Assembly (NCBI RefSeq): GCF_018476645.1
Contig: NZ_JAHCTB010000004.1
Coordinates: 248,001 to 312,000, forward strand
Reading direction: 5' to 3'
From: Aequorivita echinoideorum
GTDB lineage: Bacteria > Bacteroidota > Bacteroidia > Flavobacteriales > Flavobacteriaceae
DNA: 64,000 bases
The position numbers were made by a program, and so were the translations under genes. Shown piece by piece: positions 4,564 to 37,635 of this stretch (positions are counted from its first letter, which is position 1; every line of letters starts with the position of its first letter). The notes beneath the pieces are model-generated. The model did not search any database. It saw only the letters and a program-made list of their open reading frames with translations, and was not told the origin of the DNA.

Positions 4564-5079
4564 GTGCTTGATAATATAAGACGATTTTCTTTAAAAAAAT
4601 CCATCGAAAGGAATTTGCAAAAGCGGGATATTTCACAGCGAAATGAGCCACTCGTTTATTTGGGTTTTTTGGTTGATGAAAATCTTCAGAAGAATTTGCA
4701 GCCGTTTTATGAGTTTAGCAAAGAGCTGGGATTGAAGGAAAAAGATGTGAAGATTTTCACTTTTATTGAAACAAAGCGGCGCATCCCAACCCTTCGAAAT
4801 AACCAAATAAGCAATAAGGAATTTACGCTGCGCGGAGAAATTGATAACCAAAATGCTTCGGAATTTTTGGATTTTCCATTTGATGTTTTGGTAGGTCTTT
4901 ACAAAGGAAAACATACATTTTTGGATGCTATGGTTTCAAAAAGCAAGGCAAAGTTCAAAATTGGTTTTAAAGATGCCGATGCGCGATTGTACGATTTACT
5001 GATTAATGTGCAACCATCGAATCTGGAAATCACAAAAAACGAAATAGAAAAATATTTAAAAATTCTGAACAAAATATAA
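4564..5079 (+). CDS. DUF6913 family protein
   Basis: 171 aa, conserved in flavobacteria directly upstream of dapA and of unknown function. The protein is basic at the N-terminus ([14 protein letters not shown]), has no signal peptide or membrane segment, and is mixed alpha/beta. [30 protein letters not shown] is split around a hydrophobic strand and a Lys-rich stretch at about 105-135. The start is GTG 4564, consistent with the promoter position; the gap to dapA is 2 nt, so they form an operon. The family name is from memory and the molecular role is unknown. Confidence 0.75.
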
Positions 5080-22805: not shown

Positions 22806-22823
22806 TGAAAATTATTTTTGAAA

Positions 22824-22903
22824 AGATTAAAAGGTTAAGAGATTAAAAGACTAAATGATTAAATGACTAAAAGAGTAAAAGAGTAATAGAGTAAAAGATT
22901 AAA
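22824..22903. repeat. Tandem 8-bp repeat, ten units
   Basis: Ten consecutive octamers related to AGATTAAA (units every 8 bp from 22824 to 22896), differing mostly at positions 3-4. Lies between the exonuclease/GIY-YIG start and a second, heptameric tract. Confidence 0.85.
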
Positions 22904-22925
22904 TATTTAGAATTAAGCTATTTTC

Positions 22926-22988
22926 ACTACTAACAACTAACTACTAACTACTCACTACTAACTACTCACTACTCACTACTCACTACTC
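22926..22988. repeat. Tandem 7-bp repeat, nine units, overlapping the yggS stop
   Basis: Nine heptamers ACTACT(C/A) from 22926 to 22988. The minus-strand TAG stop of yggS (22983-22985) and the preceding Glu codon lie inside the tract. Confidence 0.88.
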
Positions 22989-23645
22989 ATTATAATTGCG
23001 TTCCCCAAAAATAGCGCTGCCCACTCGCACCATGTTGCTTCCGTTTTCAATGGCTATTTTGTAGTCGCCGCTCATGCCCATACTTAAAATGTTTAGATCG
23101 GGGTTTTTTGTTTTGAACTTATCATAAATCTGTTTCAAATGCTGAAACTCAGACTTCACTTGTTCTTCATCATCTGTAAATGTCGCCATTCCCATCAACC
23201 CCACTATTTTAATATTCTGAAATTTTTTTATTTCCTCTGAAGCAAGCAAATCCGCGGCATCGGCTTCATCCATTCCAAATTTACTGTCCTCTTCGGCAAT
23301 TTTTATCTGAAGCAGACAATTAATGGTACGGTCGTTTTTTTTCGCTTCCTTATTTATTTCCTTCAAAAGTTTAAGGCTATCCACGGCGTGCACCAAACTC
23401 ACGAATGGTGCCATATATTTTACCTTGTTTCGTTGCACGTGACCAATCATATGCCACTGTATATCTTTCGGCATTTCCTGCCACTTGCCCGCCATTTCCT
23501 GGATTTTATTCTCCCCAAAAATTCGTTGTCCTGCGTTGTACGCTTCCATCAAATCTGATACAGGTTTTGTTTTTGAAACCGCTACGAGGGTCACGTTTTG
23601 TGGCAATTCCGAATAAAATTCTTTTATATTTTCTGAAATATTCAT
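22983..23645 (-). CDS. yggS: YggS-family pyridoxal phosphate homeostasis protein
   Basis: 220 aa single-domain PLP-binding TIM-barrel protein that buffers pyridoxal phosphate and influences amino acid and keto acid pools. The PLP lysine is in LVAVSKTKP (about residues 20-28), followed by FGENKIQE (about 43-50), WHMIGHVQRNK (about 64-74), and the phosphate-binding MGMSGDYKIAIENGSNMVRVGSAIFG split at the C-terminus (about 190-215). The length is slightly short compared with E. coli but normal for flavobacteria. The stop codon is supplied by the adjacent heptamer tract. Confidence 0.94.
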   Translation of the reverse strand: MNISENIKEFYSELPQNVTLVAVSKTKPVSDLMEAYNAGQRIFGENKIQEMAGKWQEMPKDIQWHMIGHVQRNKVKYMAPFVSLVHAVDSLKLLKEINKEAKKNDRTINCLLQIKIAEEDSKFGMDEADAADLLASEEIKKFQNIKIVGLMGMATFTDDEEQVKSEFQHLKQIYDKFKTKNPDLNILSMGMSGDYKIAIENGSNMVRVGSAIFGERNYNE

Positions 23646-32247: not shown

Positions 32248-32730
32248 ATGGCAAACCTCAGTTATAATCTAATTCACGAGACGCTGGATGAAACCAGAAT
32301 GAGTACAATCTTTCAAAAACTTGAAGAAATTAAAGCGCTATTGCCACTGGGAACACTAACTCCCGAAGAACGAAAGCAATACCGTAGTCTAGACGTCCGC
32401 AACCATGCATTTGTGGAAGATGCAATAAGGGTTCAGAAAAATCTTGGTGAGAATCTGCTGCCTGCCGATTTAAAAAGTGATGCTATGGAAACAGATTTCC
32501 TATTGGGGAAACAAATAAAAAGTGTTCGTGAACGCGTTAAAAATATTGAGAATATCCTTGCGGATGTGGCGAGAATAGTAGATCACGAATCTTTTGGTAT
32601 GGCTTCAACTCAATATAAACTGTATAAAGTGGGCGCCAAGGTGGGAATTCCCAATGCGCGGACGGCAGTAGAAGAACTGCGGTGGCGTTTTGAGAATCAA
32701 GGAGGTAGGACCCTGGATATAATACCATAA
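32248..32730 (+). CDS. Hypothetical protein, 160 aa
   Basis: I do not recognise this protein. It has no signal peptide or membrane segment and appears mainly alpha-helical, with charged amphipathic helices (MSTIFQKLEEIKALL about 18-32; LGKQIKSVRERVKNIENILADV about 86-107 in two runs) and a glycine-containing C-terminal part (KVGAKVGIPNARTAVEEL about 128-145) ending GGRTLDIIP. A predicted soluble cytoplasmic protein. It is followed by the 21-bp-period dyad array and then the HTH regulator gene on the same strand, with 253 nt between the two coding regions. Nothing in the sequence shows a catalytic site. Confidence 0.7.
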   Translation: MANLSYNLIHETLDETRMSTIFQKLEEIKALLPLGTLTPEERKQYRSLDVRNHAFVEDAIRVQKNLGENLLPADLKSDAMETDFLLGKQIKSVRERVKNIENILADVARIVDHESFGMASTQYKLYKVGAKVGIPNARTAVEELRWRFENQGGRTLDIIP

Positions 32731-32764: not shown

Positions 32765-32955
32765 TGTAACCTTTTTACATACCGCTGTAACCATTTTACT
32801 TACTGCTGTAACTTTTTTACTTACAGCTGTATCCATTTTACTTACCGCTGTAACCTTTTTACTTACAGCTGTATCTTTTTTACTTACCGCTGTATCCATT
32901 TTACTTACATCTGTATCCATTTTACTTACCGCTGTATCTTTTTTGCTTACATTTG
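32765..32955. repeat. Nine-unit 21-bp direct repeat array with TAC-N4-GTA dyads, upstream of HTH gene
   Basis: Unit starts (TGTA or TGTG) fall exactly at 32765, 32786, 32807, 32828, 32849, 32870, 32891, 32912, 32933 and 32954. Each unit has TGTA(A/T)C at the left, TTTTACTTAC in the middle and a variable AGC/CGC/TGC/ATC end. Every junction reads TTAC-N-GC-TGTA or close to it; at 32822-32831 and 32864-32873 it is the perfect palindrome TACAGCTGTA. Eight junctions keep TAC-N4-GTA; the ninth is TACATTTGTG. There are no unique spacers, so this is not a CRISPR array. An operator array is the best explanation. Confidence 0.85.
32948..32955 (+). promoter_or_regulatory. -7 box TACATTTG of the HTH gene, inside the last repeat
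   Basis: Perfect TAnnTTTG, formed where the ninth dyad of the array deviates from the consensus. Predicted leader to ATG 32984 about 25 nt. Binding of a regulator to the array would be expected to affect this promoter. Confidence 0.6.
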
Positions 32956-32983
32956 TGATGTTAAAACTGAAAATTTTTAAAAA

Positions 32984-33331
32984 ATGGTGACCTCAATAAA
33001 AACAAAAGCCCCAGATGTAGGATCAATGTTGCAAATGCACTACAAAAAACACAAGATCAATAGGGCCGCACTGGCCAGAAAACTGAATCTGCACAGGGTA
33101 ACGGTAGCAAAATACGATCAAAGAAGTAGCCTACATGTGCGGGTATTGTGGGATGTAGCCATAGCGCTGGAACATAATTTTTTTGCGGACATCGCAGCCC
33201 AAATGCCAAAAGAATACGCTACCAATGTGCCCCAAAACAATGTTCAGGCCGAACGGATTGCGGCATTGGAGGCGGAGAACGCATTGTTGAAAAGTAAGGT
33301 GGAAACCCTTATGCAGGTGGTGGGGAAGTGA
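32984..33331 (+). CDS. Small helix-turn-helix DNA-binding protein with C-terminal coiled coil
   Basis: 115 aa. An N-terminal XRE-like helix-turn-helix is visible at about 16-60: MLQMHYKKHKINRAALARKL then NLHRVTVAKYDQRSSL, the second helix being the probable recognition helix. The C-terminus (about 88-113) is a leucine-zipper-like coiled coil, AERIAALEAENALLKSKVET, suggesting a dimer. The -7 box and the array of nine dyads directly upstream suggest autoregulation, but this is inference. The upstream 160-aa gene could be a partner. Similar small regulators occur in Bacteroidota; no specific name is known to me. Confidence 0.8.
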   Translation: MVTSIKTKAPDVGSMLQMHYKKHKINRAALARKLNLHRVTVAKYDQRSSLHVRVLWDVAIALEHNFFADIAAQMPKEYATNVPQNNVQAERIAALEAENALLKSKVETLMQVVGK

Positions 33332-33374
33332 GGAATAATTATATTTGGGGGAAAATTAAAAATTTAGTGAGTAT

Positions 33375-34147: not shown

Positions 34148-34723
34148 ATGAAACAAAATTTATTACTGACATTATTATTGATTTTTACAATTAATACGTA
34201 TTCTCAAGATTCAAAATTCAGTATTGAGGCTAATTACCCCATTACAATTGACAACAATTTTCTACAAGATGCATATGGTATAGTTGATATTGGGTTAAAG
34301 TATAGATTTGTGGAATTAAACCCGATAAAGATTGGAGTTAGTCTAAATGGTGGGGTTCTAATAGATAATTCAAATCAAAATAATTCTCCACAAGATTTTT
34401 TGGTGACTACGTATATTATTCAACCTAAAGTATTCGGAGAACTAAATCTTGAATCAATCGAAAAATTACATCCTTTTTTAGGTTTAGGATATACATTTAT
34501 GAACTATCAATTGTCAGGTTCAAATAACGGAATAGATGTTTCTGGTATATCTGAAAATTTGAGTGGATTTGGACTAAATTTAGGCGTTGCCTATGACATT
34601 AGTAACAAGATTTTTGTGCAAGTTCAATATGATTTCACCAAACTGAATATAAAAGATGGCCCAAATGAAAAATTCAACACAAATGTCAACTTACTGAAAA
34701 TTGGTATTGGACTTAAAATATAA
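34148..34723 (+). CDS. Putative outer-membrane beta-barrel protein, 191 aa
   Basis: A signal peptide (about 1-20, ending NTYSQ) is followed by alternating amphipathic strands: FSIEANYPITID, VDIGLKYRFVELNPIKIGVSLNGGVLID (in two runs), HPFLGLGYTFMNYQL, GFGLNLGVAYDISNKIFVQV and the terminal LLKIGIGLKI. This pattern is that of a small eight-stranded OmpA/OmpX-like or OMP_b-brl barrel. AT-rich, like the lipoprotein gene before it, and separated from it by a 154-nt gap in which I see nothing except a GC-richer stretch at about 34025-34070. Ligand unknown. Confidence 0.72.
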   Translation: MKQNLLLTLLLIFTINTYSQDSKFSIEANYPITIDNNFLQDAYGIVDIGLKYRFVELNPIKIGVSLNGGVLIDNSNQNNSPQDFLVTTYIIQPKVFGELNLESIEKLHPFLGLGYTFMNYQLSGSNNGIDVSGISENLSGFGLNLGVAYDISNKIFVQVQYDFTKLNIKDGPNEKFNTNVNLLKIGIGLKI

Positions 34724-34916: not shown

Positions 34917-35044
34917 CCATCAACCATCAACCATCAACCATCAACCATCAACCATCAACCATCAACCATCAACCATCAACCATCAACCATCAACCATCAA
35001 CCATCAACCATCAACAATCAACCATCAACCATCAACCATCAACC
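34917..35044. repeat. Tandem 7-bp repeat (CCATCAA), about 18 units, overlapping the clpB 3' end
   Basis: Near-perfect heptamers, one unit being CAATCAA. On the minus strand the last codons of clpB (Leu-Val-Asp-Gly) and its TGA stop (35032-35034) are encoded by the tract itself. Confidence 0.95.
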
Positions 35045-37635
35045 AAGTTCTCCTGATTTCTAAAAACCAGCCCATCATCAAAACTATCCAGCAGAATAAT
35101 ACTGTCCGTAGTAATTCTTGCTGAAAGAATCTCTTTGGAAAGCTCGTTTAAAACCTCTCGCTGAATAATCCTCTTTACAGGTCTGGCGCCAAACTGCGGA
35201 TCAAATCCTTTTTGTGAAAGATAGGCGATGGCCTCTGGCGTGGCATCCAGCACGATGTTTTGCTTTAAAAGCATTTTTGAGACACCTTTCAGCTGCAATT
35301 CCACAATCTTGTTAATATCAGATTTTGAAAGCGGGGTGAACATAATAATATCGTCTATCCTGTTCAAAAATTCTGGACGCACCGTTTGTTTTAAAAGCGC
35401 GAGTACTTCAACTTTGGCGCCTTCCATCGCAGTGTCCGGATCCTTCACGGCTTCGAAACGCTCTTGGATTATATGGCTGCCCATATTGCTGGTCATAATA
35501 ATAATCGTGTTTTTGAAATCCGCCAGACGGCCTTTGTTGTCCGTTAACCTACCTTCGTCCAAGACCTGCAATAAAATATTAAAAGTATCTGGGTGCGCTT
35601 TTTCGATTTCATCCAGTAGCACCACGCTGTAAGGCTTGCGGCGAACGGCCTCGGTAAGCTGCCCTCCTTCATCATACCCTACATATCCTGGAGGTGCACC
35701 CACCAAACGGCTTACGCTGTGCCGTTCTTGGTACTCGCTCATATCAATACGGGTCATGGCGTTTTCATCGTCAAAGAGATATTCCGCTAGGGCTTTCGCA
35801 AGCTCGGTTTTACCTACTCCTGTTGTACCAAGGAAAAGGAAGCTACCAATCGGTTTTTTCTCATCCTGCAATCCCGCGCGGCTTCGGCGAATGGCATCAC
35901 TTACAGCTTGAATGGCTTCATTTTGACCCACTACACGTTTATGCAAATGGTCCTCAAGCGTCAATAGTTTTTCCCTATCGCTTTGAAGCATTTTAGTCAC
36001 CGGAATCCCGGTCCATTTTGCCACCACTTCTGCAATGTCCTCTCGGTTTACTTCTTCTTTAATCATGGAAGAACCTTCTTGATTTTCAGCCAATTGGTTT
36101 TCCAATTTATTTAGGTTTTCTTGTGCTTCCTTAATTTTTCCGTAACGAAGTTCCGCAACTTTCCCAAAATCACCCTCGCGCTCAGCACGTTCTGCTTCCA
36201 GCTTAAATTCCTCAATCTGGGTTTTCAGATTTTGAACATTGTCCACAACTTCTTTTTCACTCTGCCATTTTGCATTAAGTTCATTGCGCTCTTCCTTTAA
36301 ATTGGCCAAATCTGCGTGAAGGGATTTCAATTTGGTTTCATCTTTTTCACGTTTTATGGCTTCAATTTCAATTTCAAGCTGCATAATTTTTCTATCCAAA
36401 ACATCCAATTCCTCGGGTTTTGAATTAATTTCCATCCGAAGTTTACTGGCGGCTTCATCCATAAGGTCAATAGCCTTATCCGGAAGAAAACGATTGGTAA
36501 TATACCTTTCAGACAGTTCTACCGCAGCAATGATTGCTTCGTCCTTAATGCGCACTTTGTGGTGCGTCTCATACTTTTCCTTGATTCCTCTCAAAATGGA
36601 AATAGCACTCTCCGTATCGGGCTCATCAACCATTACCTTTTGGAAACGGCGTTCCAGCGCTTTGTCTTTTTCAAAGTATTTTTGGTATTCGTCCAGCGTT
36701 GTGGCACCAATTGCACGAAGTTCCCCACGGGCAAGTGCGGGCTTCAGGATATTGGCCGCATCCATAGCCCCCTGTCCGCCACCGGCACCCACAAGGGTGT
36801 GAATCTCATCAATAAAAAGGACAATATCACCCTCGCTTGAAGTTACTTCCTTGATCACGGCCTTTAAGCGTTCCTCAAATTCCCCTTTATATTTGGCGCC
36901 GGCTATAAGCGCGCCCATATCCAAGGAATAAATTTCTTTCGACTTTAAATTTTCGGGAACATCGCCGTCTACAATTCTGTGGGCAAGACCTTCTGCAATT
37001 GCGGTTTTTCCGGTTCCCGGTTCGCCCACGAGCATAGGGTTGTTTTTGGTGCGTCGGGAAAGTATTTGAAGAATTCGACGAATTTCCTCATCACGCCCAA
37101 TTACTGGATCAAGCTTGCTATCGCGCGCCAACTGATTCAAGTTTTTGGCATATTTATTTAAGGAATTGTAAGTTTCCTCGGCGCTTTGCGATGTTACTTT
37201 TTCGCCGCCGCGAAGCTCATCAATGGCCGCATTCATTGTTTTTTCGGTAACGCCTTGATCCTTTAAGCTCTGGGCAATCCCACTTTTGGAATTGAGAATC
37301 GCCAAAAGTAAATGCTCAATGGAAACATATTTGTCGCCCATTTTCTTCGCTATGTTTGTAGCTTCCAAAACCGTTTTGTTCGCTTCCCTTGAAAGCATAA
37401 TATTACCCCCAGAAACTTTGGGAAAACTTTCCAACTGCTTGGTTAGAATTTGTTGCAGTGTGGTAAGATTCACATTTAATTTTTTGAGAATAAAGTGGAG
37501 AACATTTTCATCTACTTCAAAAATAGCTTTCAGTAAATGTTCGTTCTCTATTTGTTGGTGTCCAAGGCCTTGAGCAATTTGTTGTGCTTGCTGAATGGCC
37601 TCTTGACTTTTTATTGTGAAATTATTGAAGTTCAT
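35032..37635 (-). CDS. clpB: ATP-dependent chaperone ClpB
   Basis: 867 aa, full length. Hexameric disaggregase working with DnaK. The N-domain has two Clp repeats (about 1-145); nucleotide-binding domain 1 carries Walker A GEPGTGKT (about 205-212) and Walker [10 protein letters not shown]. The ClpB-specific coiled-coil M domain is at about 410-525, and NBD2 has GTTGVGKT (about 604-611) and [11 protein letters not shown]. Arginine fingers and the GYVGYDEGG pore loop are present. The last four residues come from the heptamer tract, so the extreme C-terminus is probably not conserved. Start ATG 35032-37635 minus strand, [18 protein letters not shown]. Confidence 0.98.

Follow-up and report, generated by a model that had tools for sequence, protein, structure and literature searches.

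The window analysed here, a stretch of 64,000 nucleotides of Aequorivita echinoideorum DNA, belongs to contig C22 of the organism's own 2.93-Mb genome (G000). The features that concern us lie in its middle part:

32248..32730, + strand: gene of a 160-aa helical protein ('up') without a known family; homologues lie upstream of 28 of 39 HTH genes
32765..32953, no strand: array of nine 21-bp units with TAC-N4-GTA junctions, proposed to serve the HTH protein as operators
32948..32955, + strand: TACATTTG, by sequence a candidate −7 box for the HTH gene, unconserved in the family (3 of 39 loci)
32984..33331, + strand: gene of a 115-aa protein with an HTH region and a long C-terminal helix (coiled coil)
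33340..33347, + strand: TATATTTG, a putative Pc-like promoter box serving the genes downstream, shortly 3' of the HTH stop codon
33457..33993, + strand: cargo gene 1, 178 aa, lipoprotein-like (by eye), with a match in the own genome only (1 of 28 genus genomes)
34148..34723, + strand: cargo gene 2, an outer-membrane beta-barrel protein (OMP_b-brl) with relatives of 38–40% identity in 2 of 27 other genus genomes

This group of genes is flanked by a CsbD gene and by clpB (the latter named by eye). The heptamer CCATCAA occurs in about 18 copies at 34917–35045, between cargo gene 2 and clpB, and adjoining arrays of AAAAGATT (about ten copies) and TCACTAC (about nine copies) were observed at 22821–22989 of the window.

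The array consists of nine exact 21-bp units, whose starts (32765, 32786 and so on to 32933) follow each other at a constant step with no insertion or deletion. The start of a tenth unit, TGTG, is found at 32954, and 30 bp separate the end of the array from the start of the HTH gene. TRF reported 8.9 copies at period 21 (score 246) and a score of 290 at period 63. The lag-21 identity of the 220 bp upstream of the gene was 0.75 vs a mean best-lag value of 0.38 for 200 dinucleotide shuffles, and no shuffle reached 0.75. Eight of the nine unit junctions read TAC-N4-GTA and the ninth is TACATTTGTG, as the initial annotation had claimed; its further description of the array, with the 21-bp step, two junctions forming the palindrome TACAGCTGTA and a TAnnTTTG match in TACATTTG, also proved correct in detail. 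The dyad of the window unit exceeded chance slightly (column permutation, p 0.038). On the reverse strand the array forms a 52-aa open reading frame with heptad repeats, which arises because 21 is three times seven. This frame was rejected as a gene, since the unit sequences differ between paralogues while the period stays constant, and we take it as a coincidence.

The window HTH protein matched the Pfam family HTH_26 at E 0.05, below the cutoff, so that the sequence evidence for its HTH label is weak; among 37 family members the best E-value was 2.3e-5, and 16 of the 37 matched at E ≤ 0.1. Its AF2 model was weak as well (pLDDT 70, pTM 0.34). The model of the window 160-aa protein was all-helical (pLDDT 80, pTM 0.62) and gave no significant match among PDB folds. 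This protein had no Pfam match, and 32 members of its family gave only scattered weak ones (best E 0.0013). The structure and PDB searches returned nothing useful.

Relatives of the HTH gene were sampled at 12 loci of the genome contigs collection and at four places of the own genome (full-length copies on C22, which is the window copy, on C8 and on C20, and a fragment); matches were found in 5 of 349 family genomes (weak in G251) and in 19 of 28 genus genomes, in some as fragments only. After dropping duplicates and hits starting beyond profile position 45, 39 distinct HTH genes were kept, two of them broken (L078 and L087). The same layout is seen elsewhere with different unit sequences, so the window copy is not the only one: a module of 160-aa helical protein, 21/22-bp array and HTH gene was found in Aequorivita, in another genus (G233) and in Flavobacterium. 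The best upstream lag was 21 or 22 bp in 37 of the 39 HTH genes and exceeded all 200 shuffles in 36 of them, the arrays not being independent as several loci are close orthologues or duplicates. The lag was 22 in L003, L011, L012, L061, L064 and L076 and 21 in the remaining 31. Exceptions were L006 (best lag 11; TRF periods 21, 43 and 64), L042 (no array) and L076 (lag 22 at p 0.015). Control upstream regions had their best lag at 21 or 22 in 38 of 206 cases, which is somewhat commoner than 2 of 25 lags predicts; an autocorrelation of at least 0.45 was seen at these lags in only one of the 206. Unit sequences vary widely between loci with the period kept, and the array fits hold at least five units.

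The association of the array with the upstream 160-aa gene, suggested by the initial annotation, was borne out, as this gene precedes the HTH gene on the same strand in 28 of the 39 loci, and no case with the gene on the opposite strand was found. The distance is 239–370 bp in 27 of them; the 28th, L067, has an uncorrected start and was left out of this range. Relatives of the 160-aa protein occur in 8 of 349 family genomes, some being distant. Seven distant loci in four other genomes (L032–L038), two of which end at a contig end, had no family HTH among the listed open reading frames as judged by eye. Pure AGCAC pentamer arrays stand shortly before such distant relatives in L032 (1801–1871, 14 copies) and L033 (1808–1855, 10 copies; reverse-complement coordinates). 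At L014, 14 copies of a different 21-bp unit, CCTCAAAGCCAATATCATTTC, occupy 4739–5035, about 2 kb from a match to the HTH 3' end. Lone 3'-end fragments of the HTH gene were found in L004, L055, L075, L086 and others, some near attC matches (L086 ends at a contig end); perhaps such fragments are retained for the promoter box that they hold.

Array and HTH domain change together. Across 34 loci (416 pairs of equal period; L006, L042, L076 and the broken L078 and L087 were left out), unit similarity correlated with the identity of the HTH part of the protein (Mantel rho 0.32, a value reached by none of 2000 label permutations) but hardly with that of the C-terminal part (rho 0.12, reached by 7% of permutations). 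The ten pairs with an HTH identity of at least 0.7 had a mean unit similarity of 0.87, vs 0.37 for the 301 pairs below 0.4. The mean identity across the family proteins is 37% in the HTH part and 61% in the C-terminal part. Common descent contributes to the correlation, although the contrast with the C-terminal part argues against descent alone. Paralogues within one genome (26 scorable of 31 listed pairs) had a median unit similarity of 0.395, i.e. at the background of random pairs (0.379), with L009/L010 (a recent duplicate, 0.99) and L040/L045 (0.71) as exceptions. Since the units differ between most paralogues and track the HTH domain, each HTH protein most likely binds its own array. As computed, the repeats behave like operators that adjoin their own gene and match its protein, by array linkage and co-diversification, respectively. 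The proposal of a multi-operator for the adjacent HTH protein gains support from this co-diversification, and the array is probably a private operator array of the HTH regulator.

A second array of about four window-type units was found on contig C24 of the own genome (L056, about 1650–1735; G000:C24, about 120650–120735), in the divergent intergenic region between pepE and a carboxypeptidase-like gene (names given by eye). In a survey of 28 pepE loci, of which 21 were scorable and seven lacked a start, 21-bp arrays also preceded pepE in G254 and G359 and weakly in G363. G359 has the pepE array and no window-group HTH was found there; G027 and G360 have the window-group HTH without a pepE array, and G368 combines the HTH with a weak pepE signal. 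A role of pepE as a trans target of the window-type HTH may serve as a lead; array presence does not follow the window-group HTH cleanly. The expected joint occurrence of array and HTH gene in related genomes held in one direction: almost every HTH gene comes with an array, but the arrays at pepE have no HTH gene beside them.

The dyad and the −7 box that the initial annotation had pointed out are real in the window but not general. The dyad reached p ≤ 0.05 (column permutation) in 14 of 39 loci and was rejected as a family feature; it is present in all eight loci grouped with the window (L001, L063, L048, L052, L068, L040, L071 and L073), a group set by eye and without a tree. Similarly, TAnnTTTG within 100 nt before the HTH start was found in 3 of 39 loci vs 38 of 256 controls, and a promoter box inside the array was rejected as a family feature.

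Downstream of the HTH gene, signs of integrons were found. TAnnTTTG follows the HTH stop codon within 30 nt in 22 of 39 loci vs 5 of 245 control open reading frames. In 15 of 33 testable loci, a 9-nt stretch that starts with GTTR recurs as an exact reverse complement after the first gene; in controls, with GTTR starts paired with other loci, this was so in 9 of 396 pairings. Such matched ends are the logic of an integron cassette, because the two ends that pair are the cassette's own. Matches to an attC model occur within 2.5 kb downstream in 16 of 38 HTH loci, all on the expected strand; seven of these 16 contributed to the training of the model and the other nine gave no training sequence. 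This tally uses 44 of 71 matches, the rest being in loci without a full-length HTH gene. Together, 22 of the 38 searched loci have an attC match or matched ends, six of them matched ends only. In three loci (L002, L049 and L078), an attC match was found upstream of the HTH gene too.

In nine aligned attC sites, the bottom-strand stem is 93.2% paired, with compensatory changes in 11 of 20 pairs and a covariation of 0.486 vs 0.156 after shuffling, the training sites having been chosen partly for complementarity. The sites of the relatives have the R''/L''/L'/R' architecture and a bottom-strand hairpin. Folding of three attC-like examples favoured the bottom strand in one (−20.8 vs −15.2 kcal/mol) and was near-equal between the strands in two. 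At G^TTR, six loci have a conservation edge, with an identity of 91% over the 20 nt that precede it and of 40% beyond it; over all 16 boundaries compared the values are 52% and 48%, so that the edge is sharp among close relatives only. The covariance model found from 2 to at least 78 attC matches per genome in all 28 genus genomes (with rough E-values). Since 9 of these 28 have attC-like sites and no HTH match, the integron does not need the module. Neither integron sign was detected in 16 of the 38 searched loci, including both Flavobacterium modules (L011 and L012) and also L060 and L064, which have less than 230 bp of downstream sequence. Judged from these sequence comparisons, the module is probably the head of integron platforms in relatives.

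In the window, no attC was detectable (best E 0.55) and no matched cassette ends were found (best with two mismatches). Neither of the two cargo genes of the window turned up as a cassette elsewhere, and L148 and L149 had no attC match. In G254, a module at the same position between CsbD and clpB is followed by at least four cargo genes and an attC match. With no detectable attC and two rare cargo genes, the window copy looks eroded: it appears to have kept the array, the regulator and the promoter box, its cassettes being fixed or eroded. A PADLOC scan of ten cargo proteins gave four matches, LmuA, LmuB, DzbA and Cas4d (weak). LmuA and LmuB (Lamassu) stand behind the module in G254 and DzbA in G368 (loci L092 and L096).

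The most complete arrangement was seen in G368, a single contig, where the 160-aa gene, the array, the HTH gene, a reverse-oriented integrase-like gene, a GTT boundary and nine attC matches follow each other within 14.6 kb. The recombinase of G368, a tyrosine recombinase of 274 aa, has its gene between the HTH gene and the attC matches, on the opposite strand. In G365, the gene of a 374-aa tyrosine recombinase comes directly after the HTH gene and has the same orientation. In the own genome, a 376-aa recombinase is encoded on contig C11, with an attC match at the contig end; no recombinase was recognized by eye among the open reading frames listed beside the window module. Six recombinases scored 165–219 bits against TIGR02249, and because none of them reaches the curated integron-integrase cutoff of 265, they are termed integrase-like here. 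Such an integrase may act in trans on other platforms. Many attC matches were observed over about 65 kb in G354 (L108; G354:C1, about 1591–1657 kb) beside a 387-aa recombinase gene, in a region near pnp- and rpsO-like genes; G354 has no HTH match.

Small HTH proteins with multiple operators before their own gene are known from autoregulated repressors of the Xre/Cro type. The module shares with them the small HTH protein and the position of the operators, whereas its array has at least five direct repeats at a constant 21 or 22 bp and the units are private to each paralogue. With sedentary chromosomal integrons it has in common the attC-type bottom-strand hairpins on the expected strand, the matched ends around GTT/AAC, a possible promoter before the first cassette and, in G368, the opposite-strand recombinase between the head gene and the cassettes. 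In contrast to those integrons, the head here consists of an HTH gene, the 21/22-bp array belonging to it and a 160-aa gene, an adjacent integrase is usually missing, several platforms occur per genome and the recombinases fall below the integron-integrase cutoff. Clusters of attC sites without an integron-integrase (CALINs) resemble most module-linked arrays, in that no recombinase was seen beside the latter; the parts of PMC8618304 that deal with CALIN origins do not mention a dedicated head module. The literature documents integrons in Bacteroidota with respect to their distribution (PMC9668308 and PMC8618304) and intI in the Bacteroidetes/Chlorobi group (PMC2426708). No description of an HTH/operator-array head module was found among the open-licence PMC literature matches listed.

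The array, its linkage to the module, its co-diversification with the HTH domain, the cassette boundaries, the attC hairpins and the −7 box were all obtained by computation. The HTH/coiled-coil protein would dimerize or form a higher oligomer via the coiled coil, would bind the two-turn-spaced units cooperatively on one face of the DNA and would control its own promoter, presumably by autorepression. The 160-aa gene, the array and the HTH gene make up one module, which in Aequorivita and G233 would often head a chromosomal integron platform. The cassette promoter at the 3' end of the HTH gene would be followed about 50–130 bp further on by an attI-like point and then by attC-bearing cassettes. 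The integrase would mostly be encoded elsewhere in the genome and act in trans, its gene standing beside the HTH gene in two loci. As the operators of most paralogous modules of one genome are unrelated, each platform may have an insulated regulator. From the computed features we infer binding, autorepression, an effect on cassette expression and recombination. Autoregulation together with control of the cassettes is plausible, at about even odds. We lean towards the combined reading, i.e. a private operator array of the HTH regulator in a module that is a frequent integron platform head. A further step, that a chromosome holds several mutually insulated integron docking sites, each with a regulator acting on its own array only and served by an integrase in trans, is put forward tentatively; as part of this, the docking-site regulator could possibly set the expression (or insertion) of the captured cassettes.

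The module may also have nothing to do with integrons and be simply an autoregulated repressor with a multi-operator, near which cassettes just accumulate in some lineages. This would account for the 16 of 38 loci without an integron sign, both Flavobacterium modules included, and for the lack of such signs in the window, yet it leaves aside that 22 of 39 loci have a −7 box behind the HTH stop, that six share a stretch conserved as far as G^TT and that in two a recombinase directly adjoins the HTH gene, and we consider it rather unlikely. An architectural role, in which the HTH-array complex would be a nucleoprotein filament shaping or marking the attI region for recombination instead of controlling transcription, would agree with the spacing of 21 or 22 bp kept over very different sequences, with the five or more units of the array fits and with the closeness of the insertion point. 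It is improbable, however, as the array precedes the HTH gene and is some 400–600 bp away from that point, and 16 of 38 loci have no cassette sign.

Regular repeats adjoining a small HTH gene and the gene of a helical protein could also form a site like a centromere or an iteron, as the initial annotation had considered; it would then belong to an element that is selfish or derived from a plasmid. This found no support and appears very improbable: in G254 and G368 the module resides on single contigs the size of a chromosome, and each of G000, G027, G254 and G233 has three to six full-length copies. Searches with the window protein gave no match among 72,556 plasmid records or among 50,697 phage records, and the family profile matched nothing in viral contigs.

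The expression of integron cassettes is usually thought to depend on the promoter of the platform, and the integrase to be under SOS control. If the combined reading is true, a platform that carries a repressor co-evolving with an operator array of its own would amount to regulated gene capture, and private regulators would explain how several cassette sites are kept separate in one genome. Moreover, the 37 natural pairs of HTH protein and array (period 21 or 22) make up a set for studying how the DNA specificity of small HTH proteins changes. The cargo includes phage-defence-like genes according to the PADLOC matches.
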